Positions 16,881-55,905 of a DNA stretch of 64,000 nt are shown here, in pieces. The stretch comes from Prorocentrum cordatum (Eukaryota; Sar; Dinophyceae; Prorocentrales; Prorocentraceae). Numbering within the stretch: position 1 is the stretch's first letter; every line of letters begins with the position of its first letter. The position numbers and the translations under genes were made by a program. The stretch covers positions 139,501 through 203,500 of the forward strand of contig CAUYUJ010015021.1 of NCBI GenBank assembly GCA_963575745.1, read 5' to 3'. The notes beneath the pieces were generated by a model. The model saw only the letters and a program-made list of their open reading frames with translations. It was not told the origin of the DNA and searched no databases.

Positions 16881-17189
16881 TGGACCAGTCGTAGCGCTGG
16901 GGGCATTGCACGGGAGGCTTCAGACCCTGGAGGGTTCCTTCCCTGAGGGGGGCGGCGGCAATGTCTGCTGCCAGTCCGCGACTGGCGTTCCACTGGCTTT
17001 CAGACCCTGGATTCCTTGGCTCCTTATCCAGTGCCCCCACCGTGGCGCTGGGGGGGTCATGGCGAGGAGGGCCAGTCGAGACAGCTGTTGGCCTTCGTGG
17101 GGTCCCGTCACCGCCACGACTGGGCGCAGCGCGGGGGGGTTGGTGCGCGCGGGGACCAGGAAGGACCCAGGAATCTGCTCCTCCTCGAT

Positions 17190-17350
17190 CCTCCTGCTCC
17201 TCCTCGATCCTCCTCCTCCTCCTCCTCCTCCTCCTCCTCCTCCTCCTCCTCCTCCTCTATCCTCCTCTATCCTCCTCTATCCTCCTCTATCCTCCTCTAT
17301 CCTCCTTCTCCTCCTCCCCCTCCCCCTCCTCCTCCTCCGCCTCCTCCCCC
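17190..17350. repeat. (TCC)n microsatellite directly upstream of LINE A
   Basis: TCC triplets with a sub-array of CTCTATCCTC units (about 17256-17305). LINE A starts a few bases downstream, and another TCC tract (23742-23882) follows its 3' end, so A probably lies inside a TCC-rich tract. Confidence 0.85.
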
Positions 17351-17354
17351 TCCC

Positions 17355-17376
17355 GCCTTAGCCATGTTGGCTCAAG
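17355..17376 (+). other. Degenerate dinoflagellate spliced leader (22 nt, 2 mismatches)
   Basis: GCCTTAGCCATGTTGGCTC plus AAG. Compared with the DinoSL consensus it differs at G4 (T) and at one T of the TTTT run (G). Leaders are added to mRNAs by trans-splicing, so their presence in genomic DNA means an mRNA was copied back. Confidence 0.8.
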
Positions 17377-17391
17377 CCATTTTGGCTCAAG
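17377..17391 (+). other. Truncated relict spliced leader (15 nt)
   Basis: CCATTTTGGCTCAAG, exact for the last 15 nt of DinoSL and directly abutting the upstream copy. The missing part ends in the TAG of the leader, which can serve as a 3' splice acceptor. An inserted leader-bearing copy was therefore trans-spliced again at its own leader. This tandem form is the known signature of recycled dinoflagellate cDNAs. Confidence 0.85.
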
Positions 17392-17540
17392 GCTCGAGGT
17401 CGAGGTGGAAGGGCAACCCCTTCCCAAGGCGTGGCTGCCTCGACCTAGCATTTTGTGAGACTCTGGCGGGGCAGAGCTTTTGCCTCGTCGAAGCATTCGT
17501 TAGCTCCTGACGGAGCAGGAAAAGCAGATCTGGCCAGCGG

Positions 17541-18726
17541 ATGGTCCCGACCCCTGACGAGAAGGAGTGGGATGTCTTTTTGGGCCCGAGGAAAACCGAG
17601 TGGGCGTGTGGTTCATGCGCGCGCTTGCACAACTGGGCGTCGAGGATCAAGTGCGAGTGCGGGCGGTCGGCGCCTGCATGCATCCGTGCCCGAGCTGTCG
17701 CTGCCCATAAAGTTGTGTTGCAACAGCTGGAGAAGAATGGTGGGAAACCCGTGGTAAAGGCAACGGACGTGACCAAGCTGAGAGCACAGCCGGACACAAA
17801 GGAGACAAACTCACTGCGTTCGAGAAGAAGTTCGATTCCTTGTTCGCCTCGCTCGCCGAAGTACCAATACGAATTTTACCCAACCTCCGTCGACTCCACC
17901 GTGGGCGTCGGAGGCGGCTGCCCATGTCCAAGAGGCAGCCAGCACAGCGGTTCCTGAAAGTGTTGAAGGGCGACGAGCTCAAGTTGCGCTGTACGTTCAG
18001 AAGTTGGAAGCGTCGACCAAGTCAATGGCAACAGGTGATGAGTTTAAAGACATTCGGGACAGTATGTTGAAGAAGCTTTGCGGACCAGCAGCAGCAGCTG
18101 CGGCCGCCGCAGACGGCCCATCTCCGAGCTGCGCAGGATCTCAGCAAGGCGAAGGTGGCTGTCGAGCAGATGGCAAGGACTTGGCGGAGAAGCGTGCCCT
18201 GTATGAGAAGTTGCGTGTATCGGTCGAGGAGCGTGAGCTATCCTTGGCCGCCAAGAGGGGGCAGGTGGTTACCTCGCAGGCTGAGTTCGACAGGCTTGCG
18301 TCGCTGGTCTCAGGCAAAGCAGGTGGCGGAGGTGACGGCAAAGTACCAGTACCAGGATCAGTGTTGCTCCATGGCATCAGCACCTTCAAGCATTACTTCC
18401 CCGAGGCTGAGGCGTTCCTCAACAGCGAGACGTGGACGAAGTTGCAGGAGCGCACCCGCGTTGCGCCCTAGGAGGCGACCCCTGATGCTGGCATGGGATC
18501 CGAGGGCGCTGCTGCTGTTGGTGCAAATGGTGCTCGCACTGCCGCCGAAGGCCAGCCAGGCCGAAAGGATACTGCTGCCGACGCTGCCGGACACACGCGC
18601 AACAATGAGCTCAGTGAGCTTTCTGAGGAGGAACAAAAGACTCTCTGGGCCAACTGCAATGACTTCGAGGATTGCGCTGCGAAGTTGGAGGGGCTCTACA
18701 ACGCCAAGAAGGCGCGGTATTCCTGA
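17541..18726 (+). pseudogene. LINE A ORF1 remnant (zinc finger plus coiled coil)
   Basis: The ATG at 17541 lies 149 nt after the leader. The first frame (139 codons) contains W-x-C-x2-C-x3-N-x6-C-x-C (WACGSCARLHN...KCEC), close to a RanBP2-type zinc ribbon, starting about residue 19. The frame then shifts to 18004-18471, which has an Ala-rich stretch and a helical, charged segment (EKRALYEKLRVSVEERELSL) likely to form a coiled coil, and then to 18493-18726 (Ser/Glu-rich, DFEDCAAKLEGLYNAKKARY). By position it corresponds to the nucleic-acid-binding ORF1 protein of LINEs. At least two frame breaks disable it. Confidence 0.6.
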
Positions 18727-19049
18727 CGTCGCTGCGCCACGTGTGCTTCATGGGCGTGGCCTGCCAGTTTTATTCGAATGCGACGAAATTGCAGGACGAC
18801 GGACACGCTGCAGCTGGTGCTCGCCCTCCTGGCGGCGAGGGGAGTGAGAGCGCGCGGTGCACCTCCCCTGCGATGCCGACCGGCTACTGAAGGCGCCGCG
18901 CCGTTGGCGCCGCGCACAGCCCGCGGAGCATGTGCTCCTGCCCCATGTGCGAGAGCAGAATGGCAATGTTTGCCTTCTGCCACTCATGACACTACTTCGC
19001 CCGTCACCTTTTCCGCCTTCGCAGCCTGCTGCTGGGAAAGATACGGGTG

Positions 19050-22000
19050 AACACGCGGTAGTGGCCCTCAATTGCAGCGGCGGCAAGGCCACTCTTAAGA
19101 CGAGACTGGCGGCATATCGAGCCTTAGCGTTGATTGATTGTGCGAGAGTTCGGACATGCAGCTGGTCGGGTCGAGGCGATTCAGAGCTGGGCGCAGGCGG
19201 GTGGATGGCGTCTCATGGCGTTGCACCCCTGTCCGTCTGCTGGCCATGTGCACAGTGCAGGTGTAGCAGTCTTTGCGCGTAGTGCGCGCGGCTGGCGCGC
19301 GCCGCAGTTAGGCTGCCATGAAGAGGGTGGGCATCGCTCGCAGCGTGTGCTGCGCGATCTCCCAGGATGGCCCATGCTCCACTGCGCCAACCTGCGTCTC
19401 TATCCAAGGGCCGGCACTCAGGGCAATAACGCATGCTGATGGCGGCTGCAGGCGCAGTTGTTGAGAGCGTCTGAGGGCCATGCGTTGTTGAATGTGATAT
19501 GGACATGTCGCCTGCTGATGTCGAGGCGTCAAGCTTCTGTAGCTTTGCAGGTCTCACCCTTGTTGCAGCGAAGCTGCGTGCTTGTCGTTATGGCGTTGCT
19601 CGGATCGATTCCCCTGGACTCAATGATCCGTGCATGCGCGCCCACGAGCTTTCTGAACTTGACGCGCGATGGTCGACTGGGCCTCGCAGACCTGTGCAGC
19701 TAGCCATGCCCAGCCAAGGGTACCGCGTGCAGCATGTAGTGTATACTGTAGCCCCTGCTAAGCCAATCCCCCCCCGCGTTCTCCCCTCCGCCCTCGCCGC
19801 TTGCCTGGGGACCTGCTACGGGGTTGGCCTGCTACGGGGTTGGCGGGGCGTTGCGTGGAGTTGGCGAGCGATGAGGAGGCCGACCCAGGGACAGCGCATC
19901 GTGCGCTCAGTCCTCTTTGGGGCAAGTTTGCCCAGATCGCTGCTCGGCGCATCGGTGCCTGCACTGGGGATGCGGGAGATAACTTCGGCGGCTTCGGGCG
20001 CCAAGTTGCCCCGCGCTTTGTCAACGTCGAAAGCCCCGTGCCTGACGAAAGCGAGAGGCGCTCAATTGTTGATGGTTGGTGGCGGACGCGGAATGCAGCC
20101 GCTCACTTTAGCCAACTAGCTTGCCTAAGTGACATGCAGAAGCCACCCTGGATGCAACATTCGCCGAGCCAGCTGTTTTGTGTGCTTCTGGTTACCCAGG
20201 GCTCGGTTTAAGCGCTGGGCTTAATAATTTGGTCAACCAAGCGCGCAGGATGTCGTGTTCGGAATTTACCCGCGAGACTGTTGAGGAGTTTCTGGAAGAC
20301 ATAGCTGATGATCTCCCCGTTGCAGTCACAGGCGCGTCAGGAGAGATCCAGACAGCTGGGGCGACTGGTGCAAGACGGCCAGTACGGGGGGAGCGCGGGG
20401 TTTTCACAGGGCCACGAAGGTTCGGATTGTTGTTTCGCTTACGGTTGCGCACGACCCCGAATGCCCCTCTGCCCGAGTGCGCAGAGATTCTGACCCCCAC
20501 ACAGTAGCGCAGCATGAGCTGCAAATAGGCCGCAAGCTATGGCGAGCAACCGCCCCCCCCCCCCCCCCCGGATGCCTGGATCCCTGATCGGTCCAGTTTC
20601 CCACCGAGCGGTTCTGGGCGAGGTGCGCGAGGTCATCCAGAGTTTCTCGGAGTCCACGGCCAGGTCCCTGCGCCAGTTTTATCCGAGGCTTCCTGTTGCT
20701 CGATAGTGAAGGCCCTGATTTGCTAGCAGGCTTGTCTCAGTGCTGCAAGGCGATAGGCCTCTTACCTAAACAGTTACCTTGGGTGCTAATGCCAATGTTG
20801 CCTGAGCCCTCCACTGGCCATTCGCTCAAAGTGCTATATAGTGGCACGCGTCGGATCTGTCAAAGGCTGCGGCGGCCGATCATAGGTTCCCCCATGGAGG
20901 AGGTGGAGCGTGGGCCCAGTCGGGGGAGGTTCCGTGGACTGTGCGTGGGCACGGGCGGCGCGAGCTGAGGCTGATGCAGTTGCGCGCCGCTTCAGTTTCC
21001 TTCTGGTGGCTTGAGGCAACACCATTCAGACGGGCTGGCACATGCAGCATTCGGGTTGCCCGCAAGCGATTGCTCTAACGATGTCAGCATACAAGTGCAT
21101 GCTTAACGACGTTTTTGATGAATTGGTTGCTCGCCCGCCTCCTCTTGTCACTTTCACGTCGCGCACCGACGATTCTGACAGTCAGAGATCGAGCTCCATG
21201 CGCGAGAGTGCGTTGCACCTTGCGAACCCAGCTGGCCGCTGTTTTTTTTGTACGGCGCAAGGAAGACAATTAGTGCAGCAATTAACGACAAAGTGGCAAT
21301 CGTTGCGAGTGAGATCTCGCTTGCGCGCGATGTTGTCTGCGGCCTAGGGCTTGAGCCCACGGGTGCGAATGCCTCAGTCACGTATCTCGGCGTCGTTGAC
21401 AGCGCTGATGGCGAGCGAGCGGCTACCCGCGCTTGCGTGCAACAGCGGTCTCGGCTTCGGGGCCTGAGGTTTCGCGTTGAAAAGACGGGCATGCTGAAGT
21501 CCGGAACCCCCCATAAACAGGCTACGAAAGGTCTCCCACAGGTCTTTCGCACGGGCTTTTCCCCTGCCTTGTCGCACGGTTCTGAGCGTTGGTGTTTCTC
21601 GGATGTTGGTTTTAACGCTGTGCGATGGGCCCAGGCTCGTAGATTGTCGCGTTCCCACTGGGGAACTAGCGATACGGCAAAGTCTGTGTCGCACGGAGAG
21701 AGGGGCACGAGAGCTGCCGTCGGTCCAGCTCTCCAGTGGTGTCGAATGCATTGGAATGCCCAGGTCAGCACCAGTCGTTCTCTGATCTGTGTCCTGGAGC
21801 TCCTCCAGCTCCGGGGCCAGGCGAAGGCCGGCGACGCTGGCGTTTGGGAATCCAGCCGTGGCCCTCTTGCGCGCGCGACCTTGTCGGCCCGTCATGTCGT
21901 ATGGAAAGTGGCGTCAGGGGCGCAGTGGATCGACCATTGGGCCTGCGCGGTAGATATCAGCCAGACCCCTCCTCGCCTCCTCTTCGATTTCCATCGCGAG

Positions 22001-23645
22001 GGTCACTAGAGAGAGGCCGAGGTCCGATTTGCACGCAGGTCAGGGCACCTCACGCAGTGTGCGAGCCACTTTCGACCTTGTGCGCAATGGTATTTGCGCG
22101 CGCTCCAAGCACCACAGTCGTCAGCAGCAGTGCCTTTTGTTGTCGTGCGCCACAGATGCGACATGGACTGAGGCGCGCGCGTGATGCAGGTTGCCTCGCT
22201 GATGGAGCTTGTTGTAGGCGCGACTCTTTGCACGTCGATTCTACATGTGTGAGCTGCCTGAGGTTATGGAGACCCGACAGTCCCTTGAGAGTCCGTCAGA
22301 GATTTTAGAGGAGGGACACACAGTGACGATATTGTGTTCACTCGCGGTTTGCTTGTGTTCTCGGATGATGATGTGCCCCTCATGCCACTCGCTCGACTTG
22401 CGATGTCCTTGATGGCGCAGGTCAGGATTTTAATATTCAGCCAGATGAGCTCGCGTCCTTTGCAGGAGCAGCGGTCGAGCTCGAGATGGCGTTCGGCGGC
22501 GGCTGCGCGGAGCAGGCCCTTCGCTGCCCCCATCGTGCGTCGTAGGGGATCACCCTTATGGGGCCAGGCGGCGATGCTCTCTTAGCTATATTGTTTTTTT
22601 TTGGGGGGGGGCACTGTGCCAGGGGAGGCTTCGCCAAACCCCTGCGATTGCAGAACATGCTTCCGCGGCACTTGCAGTGCAAGTTTCTGGTCGGCCCACG
22701 TCCTCGGCCATGCATTGTAAAGCTGTGATTTGTCAGGCCCAGAGGCCGCTCTGGAAACAGTTGGCATACTCCAAGAAGAATGCTGGTATGCGGCGGATTC
22801 CCCATGAGTTAGCAGGTATTGAATTCTAGTCCACCTTCAATGCGAAGGCTCATCGAGAGCTGTCTGCCATTGAGAACCTGGGAGGTGATGGCCGTCGGCT
22901 TGGCTTGAACCGTGCTGTGGATGAGCATGCCAAGAAGACCCTCGAGGGTCACCCAATGCCCCTTCCAACGTTTGTGGGTCATGATGGGTTTTTATCTAGG
23001 CAACGAGTTGACGCTTTTGCCAAGCTCGCTTTCGGGGTTCTGCCTCTGTTCAAACACGAGGTCCGATGTAAGCAAGCCCCTTTCACATCAGCTGGCCGAA
23101 GCTGCCGGCAAAAGACATGGCATCCCTGGGAGAGAACCGAGCTGGGCACTCAGTGTCGTTATTGTTGGACGTTGTGTGATCGACCCAACAGGCCCATGTT
23201 CGATTGCAGGGGCCCGCCTCCTGCTTCTCAAAATCTGCTGCGTGATCCCCTTGGGCACCAGCTTGTTGCCGTGTCGGGCTCGGCTCTTGCAGCTCCTCGG
23301 TCCGACCTTGTCCTGGGGCCTTGCCGTGCGCAGCAGATTCTGTGTATCAGTTGCGGGGTCTGGTCTCGGGGGAGGGCCCTTAAGCTCGCCGAGGTCAGTG
23401 GTAAACATGCGCGTAGAAGACTGGATGTTCTCAGTCATTTCCGCAGAGGGCTCGGCCCCAATATGAAGGTAAGAGTTGTGCTTGATAAGGCGTTGTCTGT
23501 GTCTTATCTAACTGTTGCGCGCGAAGCGGATGATAAACCCGAGTTGTGTGTTACATCAAGCCCGCAAGTGTTTTCGATGCTCCTTCGGCCCCCCGCATTC
23601 GAGCAGCGTATGGCTTCCCCTGCTGCTCGCATCAAAGCTAAATAA
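19050..23645 (+). pseudogene. LINE A ORF2 remnant (endonuclease, reverse transcriptase, RNase H, Cys-rich C-terminus)
   Basis: Recognisable pieces in different frames are as follows. AP-type endonuclease is at about 19050-19720 (VVALNCSGG; a DLPGWPMLHCANLRLYP segment; DMSPADVEASSFCSFAGLTL, the GDxN region). An RT fingers piece lies near 20740-20880 (LLPKQLPWVLMPMLPEPS). An RT Asp-Asp motif is at about 21166-21171. The connection region (GLGLEPTGANASVTYLG) lies within 21248-22009. The RNase H end is at about 22844-22950 (KAHRELSAIEN, then LNRAVDEHAKK). Two CxxC pairs follow (CRYC about 23157; CISCG about 23342). The stop is at 23643-23645. Many stops and frameshifts mean it is certainly non-functional. 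Confidence 0.7.
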
Positions 23646-23741
23646 GATGCAAGAGCCTCACAGGCAGATTACTTCGGGTCGATCCACCACGCGCTTTTGG
23701 TGCTGCCACCTGCCGACCTTTCACTGCGCTGTCCATCCATC

Positions 23742-23882
23742 CCTCCTCCTCCTCATCCTTCTCCTCCTCCTCCTCCTCCCCCTCCTCCTCCTCCTCGCCC
23801 TCCTCCTCCTCCTCCTCCTCCTCCTCCTCCTCCTCCTCCTCCCCCTCCTCTTCCTCCCCCTCCTCCCCCTCCTCCTCACCCC
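23742..23882. repeat. (TCC)n microsatellite downstream of LINE A
   Basis: About 140 bp of CTC/TCC triplets. Together with 17190-17350 it brackets LINE A. Confidence 0.9.
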
Positions 23883-28860: not shown

Positions 28861-28876
28861 TCCTTCCTCCTCGCCC
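28861..28876. repeat. LINE B target-site duplication, 5' copy
   Basis: TCCTTCCTCCTCGCCC, 16 nt, directly before the spliced leader. It is repeated exactly at 35422-35437, and the next base (T) also matches but belongs to the leader. The context is TCC-rich, so chance matching is easier than for LINE C. Confidence 0.7.
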
Positions 28877-28898
28877 TCCGTAGCCATTTTGGCTCAAG
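28877..28898 (+). other. Exact dinoflagellate spliced leader at the 5' end of LINE B
   Basis: Matches the 22-nt DinoSL consensus at every position with T as the variable first base (TCCGTAGCC, ATTTT, GGCTCAAG). The next bases are ATGTCTGG, not GTACCT or a similar 5' splice site, so this is a retroposed leader and not an SL RNA gene. Confidence 0.95.
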
Positions 28899-29035
28899 AT
28901 GTCTGGTTCCCTCGGGGCCAAAACGGATACCGCTAGTCCGCGGCAGCTTTCAGTGACTTTCAGGGGCCATCGAGCCTACCGCCACTGCGGTAGTCGGAAC
29001 CCTACGGGCAAGCGCACAGCCCAGCAGTTCCAGGC

Positions 29036-30252
29036 ATGGCTCCGTACGGGAAGAAGCAGGGTTACGTGTCTTGTTCTCGTTGCCATTATCAATGGAATTC
29101 CCGCTATCATACCAAGTGTTGGCAATGCGGAGGGGGACGACAGCCAGCTGTGGGGTCAGAATACCTACGTCCCAAAGGCGTGTGGGCTCAAGGCTCTGGC
29201 GGGCCGAAGCCCCCATGGTGGAAAGAACGCTCCCAGACTCCGAGCCCCTTCGCTCAGGGTCCTCCAGGGAATTGGAATATCGACCAAGGGAACCTCCAGA
29301 ACGACACCCCCTTTCTCGCCGACGACCGAGCAGTTGTTGCAGCGCTTGGAGCGCAAGCTCCCCCCCAGCACCACCGCGTAGTTCCAGCGGTGGCAGCCGC
29401 AGTGCAGAAGCCAGATCCACCCAAGCCAGTACCAGTCCGTCCAGCCCTCGCGCGCGAACAACAGCTTCAGGCAGCAGGAGTCGCAGCCCGGCGAGCACAA
29501 GAAGCTCTGGACAAGGCAGTACGGCATGAATCAGAATGTGAGCAGTGGAAGTACGCGCCGAAGCAGATGTTGCAAAGTTGGCGCGTGAGGCCGCCATTGC
29601 TGACGCAGCTTACAAGGAACAACTTCAATTGCAGATGGAGGCGACCGCCGCGGTGAACGGTCAGCCCCAATACGTCGAGAAGCCCAAGGCCGCGATCAAC
29701 CTTTCAGCTCTGTTGGCAGCCACAGAGGAGCCAGCTGTGTCGGAGTTGCTCCATTTCGAAGATGGCGAATCCTTCGGTAGTTCAGATTGTGACTTGGACC
29801 CAGCAGAAGTCAAGCAATGGCAATAGTTCAAAGAAGCACTCGCCAAATATATCAAAGATATTATTTCTCGCGCAGTTGGACCTTCGGCTCAAGGATTGCC
29901 AGCCCGCAAACAATTCAAGGACCTCAAAAGCAGGATGTCGATCAAGAAGCGCAAGACGGACATGGGCGCAGCTGCGGCAGGGAAGGATTCCAAGGATGCG
30001 CAGCAGGACCCTGGCCAGGCTCCAGCTTCTGATCCCGACGCAGCGGATGCCCACTCAGGAGGTGCTTCGAGCTCCTCCAATGGCCAGGGCACGGCTTCGA
30101 CGGCCTCAGCCGAGGCAACGCAGCCAGTGGAAGAACCACCAGAGGAGCCAATCAAGAAGGTCTTGGAGCGGGCGAGGAACAACAACGCGGAGGCCTTCGA
30201 GAGAGCCAAGGCAAGTGCTGGAGATGCGGGTGACCACAAGTCTGCAGTTTAG
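29036..30252 (+). pseudogene. LINE B ORF1 (zinc finger, coiled coil), one frameshift and one stop
   Basis: The ATG at 29036 opens a frame with C-x2-C-x11-C-x2-C (SCSRCHYQW...KCWQCGG) at residues about 13-31, a RanBP2-like zinc ribbon. A Pro-rich linker and a helical segment follow (ALAREQQLQAAGVAARRAQE). At about 29545 the frame shifts. The continuation is a helical, Ala/Glu-rich stretch (AKLAREAAIADAAYKEQLQL), an in-frame TAG at 29824-29826, a basic stretch (SRMSIKKRKTD) that could be a nuclear signal, and an acidic Ser/Pro-rich C-terminus to the stop at 30252. Probably the RNA-binding chaperone partner of ORF2. An earlier ATG directly after the leader (28899) is in another frame. Confidence 0.7.
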
Positions 30253-30289
30253 CACTGTCTGGCTTTACCCGAAGAAGAAGGAAGCGGCC

Positions 30290-33200
30290 ATGGAGCCTCC
30301 AGTGAATCGCATAATCAGTTTACACAACCTATCCTTGTGGGGTACGAAGGCCGAGAAGCTTTTTTCCGATCAGGCAGCAGACGTTATCATCATTCCAGAA
30401 TCTCACGTCCTCGAGGATGGCACGAATGACATTCTTGACTTTTTGGCGTTGAACAAGTATGCTGGAGTTGTTTCCCCCGCCTACAGAACTCGAGACAGAG
30501 ACAGGACAGGCGGCATTGTTATGGGCATACGCAGGCACAACCACTTTCGGACATTTCGACACCTCGCCGGCAAAAAGGAAGGTACAATTGGTTTGATAGA
30601 CTTGGCAGACAAGTGGACCCCAGGCCCTCTTTGCTTTCGTGGTGCGGTTGCGCTGGAGTGGAGAACGAAGCATGCATTCATATTGGTCGCGGGCGTATAT
30701 TTGACAGCGTCCGTGGGAGTCTCCAGCGGCATCAACGTGGAGAAGCTGCTCACGGTCTCGGCTCTTTTGGCGAGGTACACTGGCCAGTGGGCGATCTTCG
30801 GCGACTTCGACGCCACGCCCAAGGATATGAGCAGTTGGTCTCAGAAGTGGCCGGCAGATGTATTTTTTCCACCGGGTACTTCGCACGCGTCTACGCGAGG
30901 TACAGGCCACATATTGATTGGTTATTGTATTGCCTCCAAAGACTTCCGAGATTTGTACGTTTCATCGCAGCTCATATTTCCCGAAGGTGGAGACCATTAT
31001 GGGATATCTTTTGGTTTGAAGTTCTCAGCAGAAGCTAACGTGCGCAGAGTTCTGGACCTCCCTCGCCTCTTCCAGCCCCGGCCGCCGAGGCGTCAGGTGG
31101 CCGACCCCGACAGCAAGCGCAGTCGGAAGAAGCTGGAGAGTGAGTCCAAGCAGGCCGCGCTGACAAACACAGGTCTTGAGGGGGCGGGAAAGGAGGACGA
31201 TGATGAATTGATTGTTCCTGAAGGCGAGGATGAGAAAGCTGCGAACTCAGAACCACTCCAGGGCATTCGGGCCCCGTTCCCTGAGGGGGCTCGGAAGTTC
31301 TTGATCAAGGAATTTTTCGACTACGATCAGGAAGCTCTGCAGGTTTTGCGGGGCACCGCTGTCGCAGCTCGTATCGAGGAGAAAGTTGAACCTATTGCAG
31401 ACAGATCAGAATCAACAGATAAATGGGAGTCTACTGATTTGAATCAGTTGTGGGACAGAATCTCGGATAATACGATGGAGAAGAGCGCGTGGTCGTCGCC
31501 GCCTTCCTGGATATCCGAGTCGTTGGCTTTCAAGTACCAACCAGCTTCGTCTACAATGCTTGGGGTCAAATACTGGCATCTTGCATCTTGCATGGAACCG
31601 TATCTTTTGCAGAATTTTAGACATGCCTGAAACTACAGTTTGGCAGTGCTGCGGCCGAGCTAAACCACGTTCCTTCAAGACAATCGCAGTGGCCTTGCCC
31701 AGATCCGCCAGGTCTCATACCGACAGCTCGATTAGATGGCGGTTGCAAGTAGACAGTTGCTTGGGGGAGATGTTGAATATACGACAGCCTCTGAAAAGAA
31801 CGGACATCATCACGGGTAGAGATCGTACGACACCACACAAGCGAATCGATTTCCTGACCAAACACTTACAGCAAGCAGTTGCAGACATGCGCAACGTTGG
31901 CTGGGGTATGGTTCTTTCGGAAGATCGCCCAGCATGGGCGACCAGTCTAGTAAACATTCACAACTTTCACTACGAGGTTTTGGAGATTTTAAAGGACAGC
32001 ACGCGCAATATTGCACAATTGTTTGGCAGGAAGTCGGCATCCGCCTCGTGCAAAGAGTTTCGAGATTGGATTTCAGAGGGCCTCGAGTCGTCCGTCGGCA
32101 GCTTGCATAAGTACGTCAAGCCGAAGGCCAGGACGGGTAACGAGCTGAGGTACAACGACGTGAACGCCACTTCCTTTTGCGAGATGCTTGCAATCAAGCG
32201 CGTTCAATGGCAGGAGAAAGTGACCTCCCCGAGATTTTCACAGACGAAGGTTTTTGGCCTTCTACTGGAGGCACATACCCGTGCTCGAGAGGGCCCCCTG
32301 CCTCGTCTTACGTCAACCGATGTATCCCTTGCCATCGACAGTGTCAACTCGAAGAAGGCTTCAGTAGTTGAACAGATCGGTGGAGCATTTAAGTATTTGC
32401 CGTCTCGAGGAGTGGAGGACCTGGTTCATTTTTTCACTGCTTGTGAGTCCCACGGCACCTGGCCGTGGCAGATTTTGACAGCGCTCTTTGCGTCGTTGCG
32501 CAAAGGGCCCACGACGGACAGGTCGATGGGCCTAGTCCCAGACGCCATCCGCTTGTGGAGCGCAGCTCGCAAAGTGTATCCGACAGAGTGGGTGGGCCAG
32601 GTAGCAGGTAAATGGGATAAGGGAGTCAGAGGTTTTTCTCGTCTTAGGGTCGGCTTGCTCCGAGCGTTCATGGGCGAGTCAGTGGGCGCAGGCCCTGGCC
32701 ATGCCATCTCTTCTGCGCTTCTATGGGGCGACGACGCCTTTTACGACTCGCTCGAATTCGACGGACTCTTTGAGCAAGGCCCCGAGAAGCAGTTTCCCCC
32801 GCATGTGCTCGTCTTGGAAGGCCCGGTGCATCTGACTTTTAAAATTTTCCTATAGAATCGCAGTTTCTCGGGGCCCGTGCAGCCCACCAAGAGTATCATC
32901 GCAGGAGCCCGTCGAGGTCTGGGTTTTGGAAGATTGTATTTGTAATATGTCCTGGAGTTCGTTTGCAATAAATGCTCGCCAGCTGTGGAGGTATCTTCTT
33001 GGGCTGACGATATTACCCAGAGTTGCTACGGTTCGATTAAGTTCGTGACCCATGCTTTAGTCCGACTCTGCCATACAGCTCACCTGACCATATCATCCAA
33101 GTCAAAGATAGTCTGCAGCAACCCTCGAGTGGCCCGCGAAGTTGCCCGCAAGTTAGCGCAACAGAATATGCGCATTACTGTTGGGCAAAAGGTGGTGGAT

Positions 33201-35350
33201 TTGGGGGTGGGTAGAGGTCGGGATATGAGAGCTAGACCTAAAGCTGCAATGCGTCGTCGGCAAGCGTGGCAACAAGTGGGAGCAGCAGGAATGTTCGCAG
33301 CTACGGGTCGTCGTGGTCGTACAGCAGCTCGTCGAGTAGTCCAGCAAGGTAGCTCGGCTAAAGTAAGTTACGATGCGGCCGTCTATGGAGTGCCACCGTC
33401 TTCAGTGCAGGCCTGGCGGCGAGCGCTGGGCAAGACTCTTCCCAGCACGTTTAGAGGCCATTGCCTGGACACGTTGCTGCAGATCGAGCTGGGCGACAAG
33501 GATCATGCAGCGGCACAGGTTTGGAGATCCTTAGATTCTTGGCTGACTATTACCACATCAGGAGCTCGAGCTCGCGCTCTTGCCCTTCGAGATTGGGGCG
33601 CCCATCTCGCTCGAGCTCGATCTCGACCGCAGCGTCATTGGGGGAGAGTTACTGGGCCCACGAGGGCCATCATCAATACTCTCTTGGACCCCAAGTGGGA
33701 TCCCACGGGGCCGTGGGACTGGACTTCGGACCAAGGGGGGCAGTTTTTGGCGACGGAGGGGATACTGGAATCAAAGGTTTTCGACGTAAGCGATCTCAAG
33801 CGGGAGTTCGCCAGTTCTGCCGGGAGGAGGATATGGAGGAAAGCGGCAAACCATCACGAGAGCGAGGACGTAGCAGCAGGAGTATACCTCGAATCTACAC
33901 GCAGACAGTTGAAGGCTGCTAGAGCAGCCTACCAGTACGCGTGTGCAGGATCTCTGCTCACTGTTTCCACGGGAGGCCAGTGGCCTCGCACCCGCATCAA
34001 GCAAGTTTGTCAATTGCCTGATGATTATTCAGAGCTGTGTGACAGATGTGGGGAGGAGAATGAGAATAACTTTCATAAGGTATGGGGATGTAGATGCAAC
34101 AAGGAGCTGCCCGCGGTCATATCCACCGATTTTCTGCTGCCTCGCGCTTACACACAGCACGAGGCCCAGCCGTCCTTATGGCTGAGAGGCGTCGCGCCTG
34201 CTGCTTGGACATCAGTGACCCCTCCACCGCTCGAGGAAGACGCCGAGTTCTACGCGCATGGCGAATTTCCAGTCTCCTCCTGCATCTTGGTTGGAGCGGG
34301 CGGCGCGTCTGGCGGGAAGCATGCGTCATCCGATCTTGTTCGGGGAGTTGCTTGGGCCTACATAGTGTTCAGGCAGTTCGGCATCTCCGAGCTGGAGCCA
34401 CGACTTGAAGTGGCCAGACAAGTTGCAGGAGCAGTCTGGAACGAGCAGACTATAAATCACGGGGAGTTGTTGGCATTCTTGAGATTCCTGGAGGACTCCC
34501 CTGTGGGCCCTTACCTGATCTACGTCACAGACAATTCGTATGTTTCCCACGGTTTCCTGAAGGTTAAGCACAGCATGTTCCCAGATACTTACAACAACGA
34601 GTGGAAGAGAGCCCGAGCGGCCGTCGATCGACGGTCATTCAGTGTCATGAAGATTGAATCGCATATGTCTGCTGAGAGAGCCGCTCTGAAAGGCACGAAC
34701 GTTTTTGCGTTTGTTGGTAATTATCTAGCGGACAAGCTCGCAGACGATGTAGTAGGTAGGCATCAGTTATCCCCAGGAGAGGTCGAAGCTGTTGAGCTCG
34801 GCCTCGCCCTGTCTAAGAGTATTCGGAACAGAACCACCGACGTTTTCCGAAGTAGGTATGCCGAGCAGTCTCAGGATGTGGGCCCGGGATGCCGCGACGG
34901 CCTCGGCCGAAGCCGAAGCCGAGACCCAAGGCCCCTGGTCCCAAGCCGATCCTCGGCCCAAAGATGGCCAAGCTCATGGCTGACAGCAGCCATGAGATGC
35001 AGTCCGTTGAAGCAGGTAATAGATTTCAATGCGTTAAGTGTTTGTCGGTGGTCTCGATCAGTTCACACGGGGCAACGCCCTCACAATAATTTCTGAGAGC
35101 CCCCCATGTACCCGCCGAGCCCTGGTCTGGACCTGTCCACGGCGTGAAATCTGTGCGCGGGGCGTTCCTCAGGGCCTCTTTCCTGCACCCGTCGCACGAG
35201 ATGGTGGTCACACAGAGAGGAACCTTCCTGTGCCTGAGTTGCGGGTCCCACGCCACCCGCAGCAGTCAGAACTTGTTAAAGGAGTGCCAGTCGCGCACTC
35301 CCTCTGGTCAGAATTTTCTGGACAAGAAATTCATGAAGGGCCTAGTTTGA
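30290..35350 (+). pseudogene. LINE B ORF2: endonuclease, reverse transcriptase, RNase H-like domain, CxxC C-terminus
   Basis: The endonuclease spans about 30310-31040: ISLHNLSLWG, IIIPESHV (catalytic Glu), RTGGIVMG, AIFGDFDATP (GDxN motif with Asp for Asn), HILIGY (expected Asp is Gly), GGDHYG. RT follows: WPWQILTALFASLRKG (fingers) near 32460; WGDDAFYDSL at 32724-32753 (motif A, with Gly where the catalytic Asp is expected); PVQPTKS (motif B-like); SSWADDITQ with ADD at 33003-33011 (motif C). The RNase H-like part at about 34280-34760 has GAGGASGG (first Asp is Gly), NHGELLAFL, YVTDNSYV and GNYLADKLAD. CVKC (about 35031) and CLSCGSHA (about 35229) close the protein. Lesions: frameshift near 31610, TAG 32853, TAA 32943, frameshift near 34880, stop 35087. 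Confidence 0.8.
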
Positions 35351-35421
35351 GGCCCGCGCTCTACCCTCCCACAATGGAAGGCCGCTGGTTTTTGGAATCT
35401 GACCACTGGTCATCGGAACGG

Positions 35422-35437
35422 TCCTTCCTCCTCGCCC
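35422..35437. repeat. LINE B target-site duplication, 3' copy
   Basis: TCCTTCCTCCTCGCCC, identical to 28861-28876. It starts 71 nt after the last codon of ORF2. Confidence 0.7.
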
Positions 35438-37937: not shown

Positions 37938-38062
37938 GCGTGGAATATTCCCAACCCTCCTTGGTTGGGCATTCGTTTTGAATAGAGCAGTGTGGTCTCC
38001 ATTCCTTCCTTCCGTCCTCCTCCCTCCCTCCCTCCCTGCCTCTTCCTGTCTTGCCTGCGGGG

Positions 38063-49391: not shown

Positions 49392-49407
49392 CTCTGGCTT
49401 CCTGGTG
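49392..49407. repeat. LINE C target-site duplication, 3' side
   Basis: CTCTGGCTTCCTGGTG, 16 nt, identical to 55890-55905. It directly abuts the A-rich end of LINE C (TTTTTGTTGTTCTTTCC on this strand). The sequence is not low-complexity, so a chance 16-nt match at exactly these two borders is very unlikely. Confidence 0.9.
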
Positions 49408-49448
49408 TTTTTGTTGTTCTTTCCAGCCTAAGGCAGAGTTGAACATGT

Positions 49449-52400
49449 TTAACGCAGGACCATCTTCTGGGCCACTTGACGCTTGGCAGGCCTTGAGGAT
49501 CCAGGCGGCAGGCCTTTCTGCACTCTCCTCAACTGTCGCTTGCCATAATCATTCAAAATCGATGAGCATTCTTTGCTCAAATTTCTGACCGCTTGGGTGG
49601 CTACACAGCCACAGGCAAGACAGACAGTGCTCCCGAACTCCTTGTGGTAAGGCAAGGTGTGGGAGCTATGCAAATCAATGCCGTTGACTGTGCTCTTGGT
49701 GGGCACCATGATCAGATCCCTGAACAGGCCCTGGTGGCATGGGGTATCTAAAAACTTGGATACCATTCTCCATGGCGAACTGCCTGCCTCCACATGTGTG
49801 ACACTTTACCTGGGAAACTATCCCCCAAACTGGCTCGTGAGCTGTGAGCTTCAACTTGATACGAATCTGGTGCCTGGCAGGATTCAGGGCCGCCTCTCTC
49901 GGCGCGCGATTTCCACCAGCTTCGATAGACGCAAGCAGGCTGTGACCGAGGTGCTGGCGAACCTGGAAAGCAATCGCTTGCGCATGGGACCTGCTGTCCC
50001 TATGCGCCGCAGAAGCTCTGATATCTTCAGCCCACTGGTTCGCTATTCGGTCAGCCAAATCATTCAACAGAAAAAACAAGGGGGAGGTTCCCAGGTCACG
50101 GACTTCAGGAATATTCATATGTCTCTCGACTTTGGCCAGCACCAGCCCTCTGGATGGAAACTCCGCCAACAAGCCTCGCACATTCTGCCACACATCTAGG
50201 TGTGATTTTGGCGTGAAACCCTGTCGAATTCGCTTAAAATTCTTGACAACATAAGTGGACTCTGTCACAAAGAAGCCGTCTGCAACAGGGAGGACGGCCC
50301 GCAGGAACTCGAGTAAACTCATCGCTTCCCCCCTGTTGACCGACTGGCGCCAACCAGGAACATTGCCGAAACTAACCCTGTGTGCTTGAATCTCTCTGGG
50401 ATCATATTCGCCTCCTGATCGGGGGCCTCTGAAAACAACCCATGACCAGGCGACGCGACGGAGGGCTGGGTCCTGCGAATCGGGCCCCCCGCTGGCGCCC
50501 CCTCCTCCGAAGATGAAACCATCGACCACCGCCTCCCCCAGCTCTCCCCAAAAGGTGCGGAAATCAGCTCCGTCGGGGGGCGGAGGGGCGGCGGTCCAGT
50601 TGCTCGGCGTCAGCCCTCGCAGCCAAGAGCTAGGATTGGCCTCCCAGTCCTCTAGCGCTCTGCGGCGCACTGACTCAGAGACCTTCGAAAACTCTGCATT
50701 CTTAGGACAGCCCCAAGCCATGTGCACGTCACACCCAACCAACTCAACACACCTCTTGCAGGAGCTGTCCTGCGTGAGACCGCATTCTTGGAGCCTTGCG
50801 CGTGGCCAGCTGTTGCCCGTCGCCACGGCTTTCAAGATTCCTCGCCACTCGTGTTGGCCCTTTTTCGCTAGAAAGCGAAGCTGGCGCTTAAAGTCGCACA
50901 CATCTGGGACCTGCTCAAGACCTGACCCGTTCCACGAGTTGGCCGCAGCAGCGGCCCAAAGTTGCCTCTCTTTACTCTGAGACAGACCTTCAAAAAGGTC
51001 CGCGAGGTCAACCTTGCCCCGCCCGGGCTTGGTTTCTGAAATCGCGAACCGATCACCCAGGTCACTCTCCCAGGCCCAAGGGCCCCAGGGCTTCCAACCC
51101 ACATCCAGCAGAGTGGCGACCGCGGCGGCCGTCGGAGTGCCGATCCCGCGCCATCGATTCCTAGCTGGTTTGGGATCGAACTCGGCCGCGACCTTCCCCC
51201 AAACACGCCTCGTCTTATCGGCGCCGAATCTCGCATGTGTTAAAATCTGAAACCGAGCTTCAATCGTGTCGAGCGTCGCAAAAAAAGGCAGGGTCTCGCC
51301 TACCGTAATCCAGCGCAAGAAGCGTGGTCAGGCACCTTCCCCCTTTCGAGACGCCCCCCGTCAACCTACCCAACGCCCTACGCCAACCAAGGACAACGCT
51401 GGGCGGGGTGCCATGGACCGCGTCAGAATATCTAGCTTTAGAAAAAGCCGAGGTCATAGCCATCCTACGAGCCCACTTGTTACAGAGTTTGTTATCCTTC
51501 GCCAGCTTGCCGAGCCTGGTGAGCCGCCTCGCAGCCCCCTCTCTCCTACTGGCTTGCTTGGGCCTCGACGACTTTACCTGGCCTCTGTCAATGCCTAAGT
51601 CAGCTACTACCTTCCTAGCCTGCACTCGGATGCCTTGCCCACAAAAGAAACCCTGGGGTCTCACGGCCAACCCCCAGGAGGACGAGATGATGGCCGATTT
51701 TGGAGCAATCTGCAACTTGATCTCGCGCAGGCCCTGGAGCAATACAAGGCCCAGCTTTGACAACTCGTTAAAAACTCTATCGCTGTTGCCGTACATGCAC
51801 TGTACTATGTCATCAACCCACGTGTGCAGCGACGGCGCAGGGCGGCCCGTGGCGATTTTCCTGCAGACAAAATGGAGGGCCGCCCCACCTAAGTCCACCG
51901 CACCACTGCTGCCTGTCATCAGCGACATGCCTGGCTGCACCGCCTGCGAAAAAAACCTCCAGCCTCGCGAAGAAACCTGGCTGCCATATGGACCTGGAGC
52001 TCGAGGGCCAAATAGCAGGGAGGGAAATCCAAATCGAACGCTGTGTCCAGGACCAGGCCCCAGCGAAGACTATCATAAAACCCTTCCACGCCCCAGGGCA
52101 AGCTGGCACTCTGGCGGTCAGGGAGAACTGAGTGAGCAGCTTGCTCGTCTGTACATCGCCTGAGAGGTGCGACCTTGGGCGCCGAACAACCAGCCCGTGC
52201 CGTGCCCCATGGCCCCGCTCGCTCCTTGGTCCAACCCGCTCGGTCCGAGGTCCGAAGTCGACCCCAAAAACGGACCGCCCAGGCCAGCAGGCCTATCGCA
52301 CGATCGAGTCAACGTCTTTGACCTGGAGCGCAACGAGGACCACAAGGGCCTGCCAAGGCCAACGCACTCTCTGCTCAACTAGGGCGTAGAAATCAGCAAG

Positions 52401-54627
52401 TTGTTGCAGGCCTAGCTGCGGTAGCCATTGAAAGTCCTTCTTGGACAACCTATCCACACCTGGTACTTTTTCGGGCAGGGCCGAGATAACCCTCTTGAGC
52501 GGGGGCCTCGGGTTCGACTTGGCCCTAGACTGGGCCTTGCTCCAGAGAGAACGGACCCTCGGAAAAGAAACGCTGTCACCTGCCCACTTAGCTGCCCAGA
52601 GATCCGCCTTGACAGCCATTCTCTGGCAGGAGTCGCCAGCCGGTTCCCCCCCAGTCCGAACCTCCCCCACGTGCGCCGTCTTGTTTCGAATGCGGCTGTA
52701 TATGCCTCGGCCTCCAGCCTGGCCCCGTTGCATCGCCCACTGGTGGAAGCACGAGAGCGTGTTATTCAAAACCATTCGCTGGGCTCTCACTGAATTTTGC
52801 CTGGCTCTAGCTTCGAAATCTCTGATCGCCTGGTCCGAAGCCTCTCTGAGAACGCGGAGACCACGGACCCATTCGGAGCGAATCTTGGTGGTGAGTGGCA
52901 TGACTGGTGAGACATGCGTCGTAGCTGCCATGTCTCTGAGACGTTCAAAAAGTCGAGCCGGCCTATGATTTGTAAGATCGCCCAGAAAACCAACAAGGTC
53001 CGACAAAAGAAAACTCAAGGTGGCCCACCAATGGGCCACTGGGTCCCTGGACGAAACGAAATGGGCACCCTGGGCCTCGGGTCTCCTCTGGAGCTCACCT
53101 AGCTGGGCGCGACCTTTGAAACGCTGCTGGTCCTTTGGGTGGACCTCTAACATAGCACAAAAGAACCCATCGAAACGCGAGAGCCACTCGGCAAAGGCTG
53201 CGCCTACCTGCAACGCCGCCTCCCTGTCCAGGTTGAACGCGAACGAGTTTGCGATGTAGCTCGGCACTCTCACCTTGGCCACAGGGTCCCTCAACGTCTC
53301 CCAGAGTACGTTCTGCTGCTCCATCGGGACTGTGAGAAGCTGATGCCCATCTCCACCCGTCGGTCGGTACCCTCTGGCACTCGTGGGCTAGCAGGGGGGC
53401 GCTGAGCAGCGCGCGCCGCCTGCAGGAGCAGACGGTCGGCACCCTCTGGCGCCCCCAGCGCCAACCCTGGGTGCTGAGCAGTGCGTGCCGACAGGGGACA
53501 GTACTTCACACGCCGACTGGGTCTCTCCAGGATTTACCTCCTCAACCACTTCCAGTTCATCAAAATCCTCAACAGCTTCCTCTAACTCCTCGATGCCCAA
53601 TCTACATTGCTGAGGTAGCTGAACGGTGGCGGCGTCTTGAAACTGATTGCCTTTCTAGTCCTCAAGGCGTCCTGTACCACAGGTTATCCCTCGACTTCTT
53701 CAGGCCCACCCTCCTGCTTTAACCTCAGCTTTCTGGACCGCTTGCTGTTCGGATTCCTTGGCTTCTTGGGCATCGGAGGATAAACAAATCTTTCCGACAG
53801 TGGCAATATCCAGCGCGATGCTTGTTCCAACTTTGGCTTCAACTTGAGCTGCAACCCGAAATGTGCTCTGCCCCCATCATGGCAGGCTGTGTCGCCCACA
53901 ACGAATTAATCAATACATCTGGTCATAGACGGCGAGTGGACCATGAAATCGATCAACTTTTTCTTGCCCAATGTGCAAGTGTAATCTGAACCAACTGCAG
54001 TGCGAATGATGCCGTCTACCAGCTTGGACCTGCCAACCTTCACCTGTTCGCTCGGCTCCGCGTCGTAGTCTCCTATGGCCAACCAAGGCGTGCGTATGCA
54101 CTGAATCAGCTGCCCATCTGAATCAACTTGTCAATACTGGTGCCTGTCAATCCTATGCCTGCGGTGAGATAAGCTCCTATGGTGGTGATCGCCTGACCCC
54201 CGACCTTCAGCTGGAAAGCGACTAGGTCCTTGAAGTCTAGGCCCTTCTGCTTGGTGATCTCTGGCCCGTTCAACATACGGAGGCCCGTCTGCTGGACGGG
54301 CTTGTTCGCCAGATGCCTGAATGACTGAAACCTGTAGCGCTCCAAGACTCCTGCCGTGATGCCTGCTGCATGCTTGACGCCGCTGGCCGCATGCGATGGC
54401 GCCACTAGCGCCTGGTAGCCACATCTGTCCCACTCATGTAGAACCTCATGGCACTCTTCTGGCAGGAGATGTAGTTCTGGAAATATGAGGACATCGTGGG
54501 CCCTCTCCTTCAGCAGCCCCTTCGCAGGAAAGCCCCATCCAGAGAGGTTTCGCAGGTAGAGACTCTTCACGTCTTGGGCCCCAGCATCAGGAGCTAGACC
54601 CTCCCCCAAGACCCTTCCCACTGGCAC
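49449..54627 (-). pseudogene. LINE C ORF2: endonuclease, reverse transcriptase, RNase H-like domain, CxxC C-terminus
   Basis: Read downwards, the endonuclease (54580-53850) shows LYLRNLSGWG, VLIFPELH (catalytic Glu), TIGAYLTAG, WLAIGDYDAEP (GDxN motif with Asp for Asn), KKKLIDFMVHS and RAHFGLQL. The pre-RT region (53324-52293) ends in RVRWPWQALVVLVALQ. RT motif A WGVEGFYDSL (about 52096-52067) has Gly at the catalytic Asp position. Motif B-like QPGMSLMTG and motif C HTWVDDIVQ (DD at 51809-51814) follow. The 547-codon intact frame 51318-49675 covers the connection region, a CxxC..H..C finger (CKRCVELVGCDVHMAWGC) and the RNase H-like segment (FGGGGASGG, NRGEAMSLL, FVTESTYV, LNDLADRIA). CHTCGG (about 49800) and CLACGCVA (about 49620) close the protein. 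Frames change near 54100, 53650, 52290, 51930, 51290 and 49790, with an extra stop near 53905. The true start codon is unclear; 54627 is a GTG. Confidence 0.8.
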
Positions 54628-54781
54628 GAAAACCTCCCACCAGACCCTCGACCTCTTGCTCGAGGCGGGCCTGCTGTGGGTCCAGGGGGCCGCTACCCAC
54701 CACAGCCCCTAGCTGAGGGGCCGTGCCCTGTCGGCCCTGTGGGCCTGGAGTTCGGGCCGTCCCTGTTGCTGACGCCCCACC

Positions 54782-55708
54782 TCATGAGCCAGTGGCCTCA
54801 CCTGCTGGTGCGGTCTCTGGTACCTTCCTCTTCTTCTTCGCCCTCTCCATGGCTTCCGCCAACTGCTTCTCGTGTTCGTCCAACTTTGACTGCAGGGCCC
54901 CGTGCGACCGCTGCGCCGCCTCCGACAGTGCCTGCTGCAACTGCAACTTGGCCCTGTCAAGCATCTTGCGGTCCTCCTTCTGCACCTCGAGGCCCTCCAA
55001 CTGCGATTCGTAATTGATCTCCAGCTCGCACATCGACCGAGGCTGCTTTCTTGGCTGGCAACGCATGTGGCAGGTACTGCCGGGCGGCTGCAATCTCATT
55101 CTTCTCGGCGCGCTGCACCTCCTGCGTTGCATCGGCAAGGTCATGCTCTGTCTTCTCGAGCTCTTTCTTTTTTTCGGATCCACGCAGCCTTGGCCTTCTC
55201 AAGTAACTTTTTGGCGCGACTGACTCGAGCCGAAGCCTGCTGCAGACCCTGTCCTGGTTGGAGCGGGGGTTTGGGGGCTGGCTCCTCCAAGGCCTTGAGG
55301 AGCCCCTGAGCAGCCATCTGGGCCTTGGAGGGGAGCAGGCGGGCCAGTTTCCTGATCTGTTCTTCGGGGGGCTCTCTGGTGGCTGCAGGCGGTCCCGAAC
55401 TCCACTTGTTGGGTAGAGAAGAAACAACATCATGATCATCAAAGAAGCAACCACACTCACAAGTCCAACTCTTCGACTTGAGGCGGTCCTGGAAGAGTTT
55501 TTTTGCCACAACTGCTGCATTCAACCATGGGCCGCCCTCGACGATTACCCCACCATCCTGACATGCTTGGCAAGGGCGGGAAGTCGAGCAACCGATCTGT
55601 TCCTTGACCTTTTCCTTTACCATTGGGACTGCCCGATCCATACCCACCCTGCACCCACGGCGCATAAGCGAACTTATTGTGCCAAGGCGCATGGCGCTGC
55701 ACTCCCAT
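54782..55708 (-). pseudogene. LINE C ORF1 (zinc finger, coiled coil), frameshifted
   Basis: The ATG at 55708 opens an 84-codon frame with a Gly/Lys-rich start and PMVECSSCGKK. After a frameshift near 55490 the finger continues as KSWTCECGCFFDDHD, so the intact protein would have C-x2-C...W-x-C-x-C, as in LINE A. Downstream pieces are strongly helical: KKKELEKTEHDLADATQEVQ (about 55160) and DRAKLQLQQALSEAAQRSHG (about 54950), then a basic ERAKKKRKV that could be a nuclear signal, with a stop at 54782-54784. The zinc finger plus coiled coil fits an ORF1 nucleic-acid chaperone. At least two frameshifts disable it. Confidence 0.7.
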
Positions 55709-55847
55709 CCCACAAAGAGAAGTAGGAGCGAGATCGGACTTAGATTACCGAAATGAAATGCCCCGAGTGGACGTCGGGGGGATACGCTTGGGGGCCGTGT
55801 GCGTCTCTGGGACGCCCCCCTTGCCGCAACTCTGTTCGCTGCTGACG

Positions 55848-55866
55848 CCTGAGCCACCGCTACGGA
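55848..55866 (-). other. Second, relict spliced leader in LINE C
   Basis: The reverse strand reads TCCGTAGCGGTGGCTCAGG, 19 nt, directly downstream of the outer leader. It keeps the 5' TCCGTAGC and the GGCTCA end but has lost three bases of the CATTTT part. Unlike the LINE A relict it retains the leader's first seven bases, so the later leader was joined upstream of the whole older one. Confidence 0.7.
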
Positions 55867-55888
55867 CTTGAGCCACAATGGCTACGGA
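55867..55888 (-). other. Dinoflagellate spliced leader at the 5' end of LINE C (one mismatch)
   Basis: The reverse strand reads TCCGTAGCCATTGTGGCTC plus AAG. Only one T of the TTTT run is changed (G). One extra A (55889) separates it from the TSD, perhaps a base added at the cap during reverse transcription. Confidence 0.92.
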
Positions 55889-55889
55889 T

Positions 55890-55905
55890 CTCTGGCTTCC
55901 TGGTG
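55890..55905. repeat. LINE C target-site duplication, 5' side
   Basis: CTCTGGCTTCCTGGTG, identical to 49392-49407. The bases beyond differ (T before, GGG after, versus C before, TTT after), so the duplication is exactly 16 nt. Confidence 0.9.

Follow-up and report, generated by a model that had tools for sequence, protein, structure and literature searches.

A 64,000-nucleotide stretch of DNA from Prorocentrum cordatum (contig CAUYUJ010015021.1, positions 139,501 to 203,500; here called the window) contains a complete long interspersed nuclear element (LINE), element A, whose 5′ end is the dinoflagellate spliced leader (DinoSL, or SL). The observation extends beyond A to two more SL-headed LINEs in the window, B and C, and in all three families every copy found to reach the 5′ end starts at the SL. 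On the strength of these comparisons we consider it very probable that A, B and C propagate as SL-trans-spliced mRNAs: such LINEs are probably copied from fully processed messages, with a front end supplied by the RNA-splicing machinery of the host. The window has a GC content of 59.2%, and its features are listed in Table 1.

SL-headed LINEs in the window

Read 5′ to 3′ on the reverse strand, A starts with a single A followed by TCCGTAGCCATTGTGGCTCAAG, which is the DinoSL with one T>G change, continues with TCCGTAGCGGTGGCTCAGG, and finishes with GGAAAGAACAACAAAAA. The sequence CTCTGGCTTCCTGGTG has exactly two matches in the window, one at each end of A. An earlier interpretation of this DNA (the sequence-only reading) had described a 16-bp target-site duplication and a DinoSL preceded by one extra A; the duplication is indeed perfect, correctly placed and unique in the window, and the head of the element is as described apart from the single change in the SL. 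The second, degenerate SL TCCGTAGCGGTGGCTCAGG was absent from that account. The extra A also precedes the SL in copies L006, L009 and L016 (handles of this kind denote individual copies and loci), and may represent the first base of the SL RNA, because candidate SL RNA genes read ...GAGCA/TCCG at the SL start. Shuffling the window 100 times gave no SL match at up to three mismatches, and a reversed-pattern control gave none in the whole host genome; the SL in the window is therefore not a chance occurrence.

Frameshifts and stops interrupt the reading frames of A. When A was compared with the window, it gave a single full-length match only, with no long terminal repeats. A blastn comparison among A, B and C found no similarity outside simple repeats, and no clean duplication was seen by eye around the window copy of C.

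Table 1. Features of the SL-headed LINEs in the window (positions counted from the first base of the window).
Feature	Positions	Strand	Remarks
Element A, complete SL-headed LINE, ~6.5 kb	49408..55889	-	at least 52 matches in host genome
Target-site duplication of A, 3′ side of element	49392..49407	.	CTCTGGCTTCCTGGTG
Target-site duplication of A, 5′ side of element	55890..55905	.	CTCTGGCTTCCTGGTG
DinoSL at 5′ end of A	55867..55888	-	TCCGTAGCCATTGTGGCTCAAG, one mismatch; extra A at 55889
Second degenerate SL-like copy in A, relict leader	55848..55866	-	TCCGTAGCGGTGGCTCAGG; in 18/18 aligned family-A copies, with small changes
Endonuclease region of A, two frames	53909..54708	-	motifs FPELHL, WLAIGDYDAEP; intact relative aligned
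Reverse transcriptase region of A, several frames	51263..52308	-	TWVDDIV; matching L020 region aligns with Pfam RVT_1 stretch of a Symbiodinium protein
RNase H-like region of A	49930..50490	-	L020 counterpart matches PF00075 at E 0.043, below cut-off
A-rich 3′ tail of A	49408..49417	-	ACAACAAAAA
Element B, second SL-headed LINE, inside TCC-rich array	28877..35421	+	related to A: 33% identity over 396 amino acids
Perfect DinoSL, 5′ end of B	28877..28898	+	
Duplication of B, 5′ side, 16 bp	28861..28876	.	TCCTTCCTCCTCGCCC
Duplication of B, 3′ side, 16 bp	35422..35437	.	TCCTTCCTCCTCGCCC
Endonuclease region of B	30290..31048	+	IIPESHV, GDFDATP, GDHYGISF
Reverse transcriptase region of B, two frames	32307..33227	+	FYDSL, WADDI
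RNase H-like region of B	34308..34847	+	
Element C, third SL-headed LINE, 3′ end approximate	17355..23742	+	TCC-rich arrays either side (17178-17353, 23742-23877)
DinoSL of C, mutated	17355..17376	+	GCCTTAGCCATGTTGGCTCAAG
Truncated relict SL in C	17377..17391	+	CCATTTTGGCTCAAG, joined to GCTCGAGG

5′ ends of copies across the host genome

Families were named after their window copies (A on the minus strand, B and C on the plus strand) and matched against the host assembly (4.13 Gb; 4,128,499,153 bases in 21,875 contigs). The resulting match lists are lower bounds, and all figures for the three families hold among the matches listed. Family A has at least 52 matches, among which 18 distinct copies reach the 5′ end; family B has at least 50, with ten further 5′ ends making 11 together with window B; and family C has at least 65, of which 11 relatives were fetched, making 12 with window C. 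The counts leave out 5′-truncated copies; L007, which duplicates L006; L010/L024 and L013, where an assembly gap interrupts the 5′ side; for family B, the diverged relatives C18412 and C1651, whose matches start at query bases 175 and 427; and for family C, C14470 and about a dozen further places.

All 41 copies that reach the 5′ end (18/18 in A, 11/11 in B and 12/12 in C, window copies included) start at an SL with 0–3 mismatches, the inserted DNA opening with the first base or two of the SL. The expectation of the sequence-only reading that other copies would start exactly at the leader is thus borne out among the copies fetched, and LINE sequence upstream of the leader, which would have spoken against it, is present in none of the 41. 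In family A, the DNA upstream of the SL is unrelated between copies, save for the pair L009 and L016, which share a common flanking repeat. In the A and B lists, the first match of a copy begins either at the SL or a long way downstream of it, the pattern that 5′ truncation would give. In family C, matches to the relatives began after the leader, at query base 36 or well beyond it, and fetching the flanks revealed an SL in 11/11.

Target-site duplications and recent activity

The 14 family-A copies with both ends, together with window B, gave duplication scores of 9–17 (10–17 bp with 0–1 mismatch). Among 210 mismatched flank pairs the mean score was 1.4 and the maximum 13, or 8 when copies in TCC arrays were set aside. 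The duplications are not due to chance: the real scores exceed the null maximum outside TCC arrays. Other copies have duplications of their own (10–17 bp), so the 16-bp repeat of A is specific to its site and is not part of a common genomic repeat. L017, a copy inside a TCC array, has an ambiguous duplication. Many junctions of families B and C lie in repetitive TCC, and duplications there are informative only in imperfect arrays; in such arrays we found duplications of 15 bp (L082/L089 and L095/L099), 17 bp (L086/L092) and 12 bp, exact (L066/L067), while L084/L091 has none and L077/L078 only a weak one.

Insertion of SL-headed LINEs is evidently recent in family A, because the copies L019–L023 are nearly identical (0.2–1.0% divergence over 6413 bases, with zero gaps), have a perfect SL and open frames of 392 and 2123 amino acids, and occupy five different sites with perfect duplications of 15–17 bp. 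Family C includes many relatives with nearly equal match scores.

Joints between the leader and the element

Copies of the same family can differ in where the SL is joined, though always after AG, and this was seen in three families. Eleven copies of family C read SL, then ACGGAGCTTACCTCCCGTCCCGACTCCAG, then AGGCTCGAGG or a close variant; these 11 have about 31 more leader bases than window C, ending ...ACTCCAGAG or close to it. Window C reads SL, CCATTTTGGCTCAAG and then GCTCGAGG, with a joint shifted inward by about 31 bases, directly after an AG that follows a pyrimidine-rich stretch. Its truncated relict CCATTTTGGCTCAAG shows what appears to be one more round of splicing. L111 and L051 belong to one family, the former with a relict and the latter without, and in L108 the SL is joined inside a decayed SL that is kept whole in L120 and L050. 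When the two subfamilies of A are compared with gaps counted, divergence is 1.4% in the SL, 17.5% in the next 22 columns and 22–84% in later blocks. The alternative AG joints are the trace expected of repeated trans-splicing, and show that trans-splicing has renewed the leader in some lineages.

The sequence-only reading had proposed that the template of A was a trans-spliced LINE mRNA copied to its 5′ end, and that the element could do without a 5′ terminus of its own. The former proposal is supported by the SL at all 41 ends and by the site-specific duplications. The latter is only an inference: each such copy has an SL in its DNA, and renewal in every round, beyond the lineages in which it is seen, is likewise inferred.

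In the proposed cycle, a genomic LINE copy would be transcribed and the host spliceosome would splice the SL onto an AG close to where that copy begins. The usual acceptor would be the AG that ends the resident SL (CTCAAG), and sometimes CCGTAG inside the SL or an AG further in. The enzymes of the element would nick a target, often a microsatellite, and the mRNA would be copied to its first nucleotide. The SL would thereby serve both as the 5′ terminus of the element and as a portable, self-regenerating splice acceptor. A wider proposal, that renewal occurs in each cycle across dinoflagellate LINEs, that LINE families partition the microsatellites, and that these LINEs are the DinoSL retroposition machinery, with many "retrogene tags" being LINE heads, is one on which we are evenly divided.

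Protein evidence on the nature of the elements

Elements of the A and B type have motifs in the order APE (apurinic/apyrimidinic endonuclease), reverse transcriptase, RNase H; the motifs in the frames of A, B and L020 are ones that we take to be characteristic of these enzymes. Residues 1135–1340 of open reading frame 2 of L020 are 34% identical to the Symbiodinium protein P0002 where Pfam sees RVT_1, and residues 542–622 are 26% identical to part of its Exo_endo_phos stretch, which is weak and in P0002 itself scores below the Pfam cut-off. The RNase H counterpart in L020 likewise falls below the cut-off (Table 1). An endonuclease profile run against the PDB gave matches that include CdtB, a protein with a DNase I-like fold, at E 0.49, which is not significant. 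A protein search with the reverse transcriptase/RNase H frame of B scored 0 of 7991 candidates, and a search of viral contigs with the same frame gave 15 stretches, none of them confirmed. A distant relative of the young LINE protein, at 29% identity, is itself named from Prorocentrum cordatum. The copies are full-length or 5′-truncated, with short duplications at their ends. A, B and C are assigned as non-LTR (long terminal repeat) retrotransposons, the APE-type endonuclease and the reverse transcriptase being recognised by homology in L020.

SL copies, microsatellites and SL RNA genes genome-wide

The exact SL has 14,218 matches in the host assembly, and the reversed pattern has none. Among the first 42 listed places, none skipped, the SL lies flush with sense (TCC)n in 17 and with (GGA)n in 7, an array being called where it makes up 80% of 30 bases; the background for each array type is about 0.8–1.3%. 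A relict was flagged in 7/42 places, and a zinc-ribbon motif, as in the first frame of SL-headed LINEs, in 6/42 (shuffled controls, 0). For most of the 42 a LINE is not proven individually, and host retrogenes may be among them. Eight of the 30 places with SL followed by GT (C365 left out) resemble SL RNA genes; among the other 22, 12 are in sense TCC and one in GGA. The eight candidate SL RNA genes (L037–L041, L047, L057 and L058) have CCCCACGAGCA upstream, then the SL, then a stem-loop GTGGCTCTGACTGCAG..CATAGTTGCC, and the stem changes in L057 appear compensatory.

In family B, all 11 5′ ends and both truncated copies are in TC-rich, TCC-type sequence as judged by eye, several of the arrays being imperfect (L066, L068, L075 and window B). 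Confinement to one repeat type, the mark of a microsatellite-specific LINE, is found in family B but not in family A: most family-A copies are in neither TCC nor GGA, and most family-C copies are in sense TCC-rich sequence. A further SL-headed family (GCTAAACGTTGTGAAGGGCTATAGACGCC or close variants; L034, L117, L134 and L136) is found in (GGA)n or GA-rich sequence and not in (TCC)n. In another, with heads beginning GCCATG (L113, L131 and L140), the preceding sequence ends ACAT or CAAT, and is AT- or AC-rich in L113 and L140. The choice of array seems to follow the head family.

Heads of the B type have, directly after the SL, a hairpin of varying sequence (window 28899-28944; L035, L042, L043, L049, L051, L053, L055, L103, L109, L128, L129 and L133). 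Next comes GGAYACCGCTAGTCCGCGGC, or a variant of it, able to fold into a second hairpin with the stem CCGC/GCGG or, for L128 and L129, CCTC/GAGG. From their sequences these hairpins look like a conserved RNA structure.

Alternative explanations

An alternative to renewal is that ancestral LINEs captured the SL once or a few times and now inherit it, an internal promoter starting transcription at the first SL base and most rounds being unspliced. Many LINEs have an internal promoter that starts at the first base, and within bursts (L019–L023, and the young C copies) the heads are identical and without relict. Several results weigh against propagation by trans-splicing, and some of them favour inheritance. 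L073 and L076 (family B) share the SL change CTCAAA, which counts against renewal in every round because re-splicing at CTCAAG should erase the change, and the copies of the GGA-array families (L034, L117) have no pyrimidine tract upstream. In the older family-A copies alone, the contrast between the SL (2.8%) and the next block (5.2%) is weaker. SL variants are private in 12 cases and shared in one, as against 11 and six for the next 21 columns, which is a trend only (L068 and window C omitted, L020–L023 collapsed into L019). On the protein side, a Pfam search of the intact 2123-residue frame found no reverse transcriptase, Pfam and PDB searches with the reverse transcriptase of the element gave no significant match, and AlphaFold models of two element proteins had a mean predicted local distance difference test score of 46 and 35, too poor to use. 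Inheritance is nevertheless hard to reconcile with alternative AG joints in three families, with the rarity of shared SL variants, and with the same leader on A, B and C despite their lack of blastn similarity outside simple repeats; moreover, it would still need an SL derived from a trans-spliced mRNA. We regard it as possible but unlikely, and favour trans-splicing of the LINE transcripts.

The sense TCC-rich surroundings of family B and of most family-C copies, and the excess of TCC over GGA in the 42-place sample (17 against 7), could suggest that selection favours insertion into (TCC)n because the array supplies a splice acceptor with its pyrimidine tract, so that target choice and trans-splicing form one system. 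This we find distinctly unlikely: most family-A copies are in neither array, and plain endonuclease preference accounts for the pattern. Because one family of heads (L034, L117, L134 and L136) sits in (GGA)n, the array is best read as an apparent preference of the endonuclease rather than as a signal that splicing requires. SL exons have been named as a LINE target (PMC4640811), and an SL beside a LINE might mark an insertion target, as in CRE/SLACS or NeSL elements. The duplications, different from site to site, fall outside the SL, which occupies the 5′ end alone, and many targets are microsatellites; an SL-exon-targeting LINE is refuted for the copies examined, and we give this explanation practically no weight. 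A is broken by frameshifts, and might be a lone processed pseudogene, derived from a LINE with a different 5′ end in its active copies. This too is refuted for the copies examined and is extremely improbable, given that, among the matches listed, 18/18 family-A copies that reach the 5′ end are SL-headed, five of them with open frames. A ribozyme like that of hepatitis delta virus, as at the 5′ end of L1Tc, was also considered: of the 95 matches that Rfam models gave across 13 SL loci, none was to a ribozyme, none reached its gathering score, and most were to microRNA models in simple repeats.

Relation to known systems

SL retrogenes, relicts and microsatellite-targeting LINEs are already known. 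Slamovits and Keeling reportedly described DinoSL-tagged retrogenes in 2008. Such retrogenes are documented in dinoflagellates (PMC6050394, PMC3229502, PMC12014239). The LINEs described here resemble them in that the SL is copied into DNA from a trans-spliced mRNA and in leaving truncated relicts such as CCATTTTGGCTCAAG after reuse of CCGTAG as acceptor. They differ in their template, which here is the LINE and in those retrogenes a host gene that some unidentified retroelement mobilised in trans, and in having duplications and recent bursts. With the group of APE-type LINEs that have an RNase H domain, A, B and C share two open frames, the order endonuclease, reverse transcriptase, RNase H, an A-rich or short tail, 5′ truncation, and duplications of about 10–17 bp; unlike that group, they have a host-encoded SL rather than an element-encoded 5′ terminus, and no significant Pfam reverse transcriptase match. 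In CRE/SLACS and NeSL elements the SL exon is the insertion target; these are likewise linked to spliced-leader sequence, but here the SL is the 5′ end of the copied RNA. Togen, a microsatellite-specific LINE, inserts in (TG)n (PMC4640811); family B is similarly confined to a short tandem repeat, but has a different target and is SL-headed. The trypanosomatid L1Tc/ingi elements, also LINEs in an SL-trans-splicing host, have a conserved 77-nucleotide 5′ promoter, Pr77, and unspliced translatable transcripts (PMC8190864, PMC4748587), to which SL-headed LINEs present the opposite solution.

We found no statement of a LINE with the SL as its own 5′ end in the available text of the open-access literature, including dinoflagellate papers; subscription papers may contain one. 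According to a 2018 review, the type of retroelement driving dinoflagellate retroposition is unknown, and LTR Ty1/copia elements are favoured (PMC6050394). The LINEs described here carry the leader, have duplications and include young copies with open frames, which makes a non-LTR machinery a strong candidate. Genes have been tagged as retrogenes by a nearby DinoSL (PMC6050394, PMC8045281), and retrogene counts made in this way deserve re-examination in view of the 14,218 exact SL copies, LINE families among them. LINEs of Symbiodiniaceae and relatives are described as old, inactive remnants, whereas at least one family here has moved recently. In a more general sense, these would be selfish elements with a terminus supplied by host RNA processing.

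Minor observations

Two exact DinoSLs, 147 bases apart, occur on the minus strand of an IMG/VR "viral" contig (L001) near 4245 and 4392. The only finds of a contig scan were two short contigs of Dehalococcoidia metagenome-assembled genomes (L101 and L102) with an exact DinoSL, probably dinoflagellate contamination. In the window, a 102-bp unit is repeated in tandem about 13 times at positions 38059-39378.

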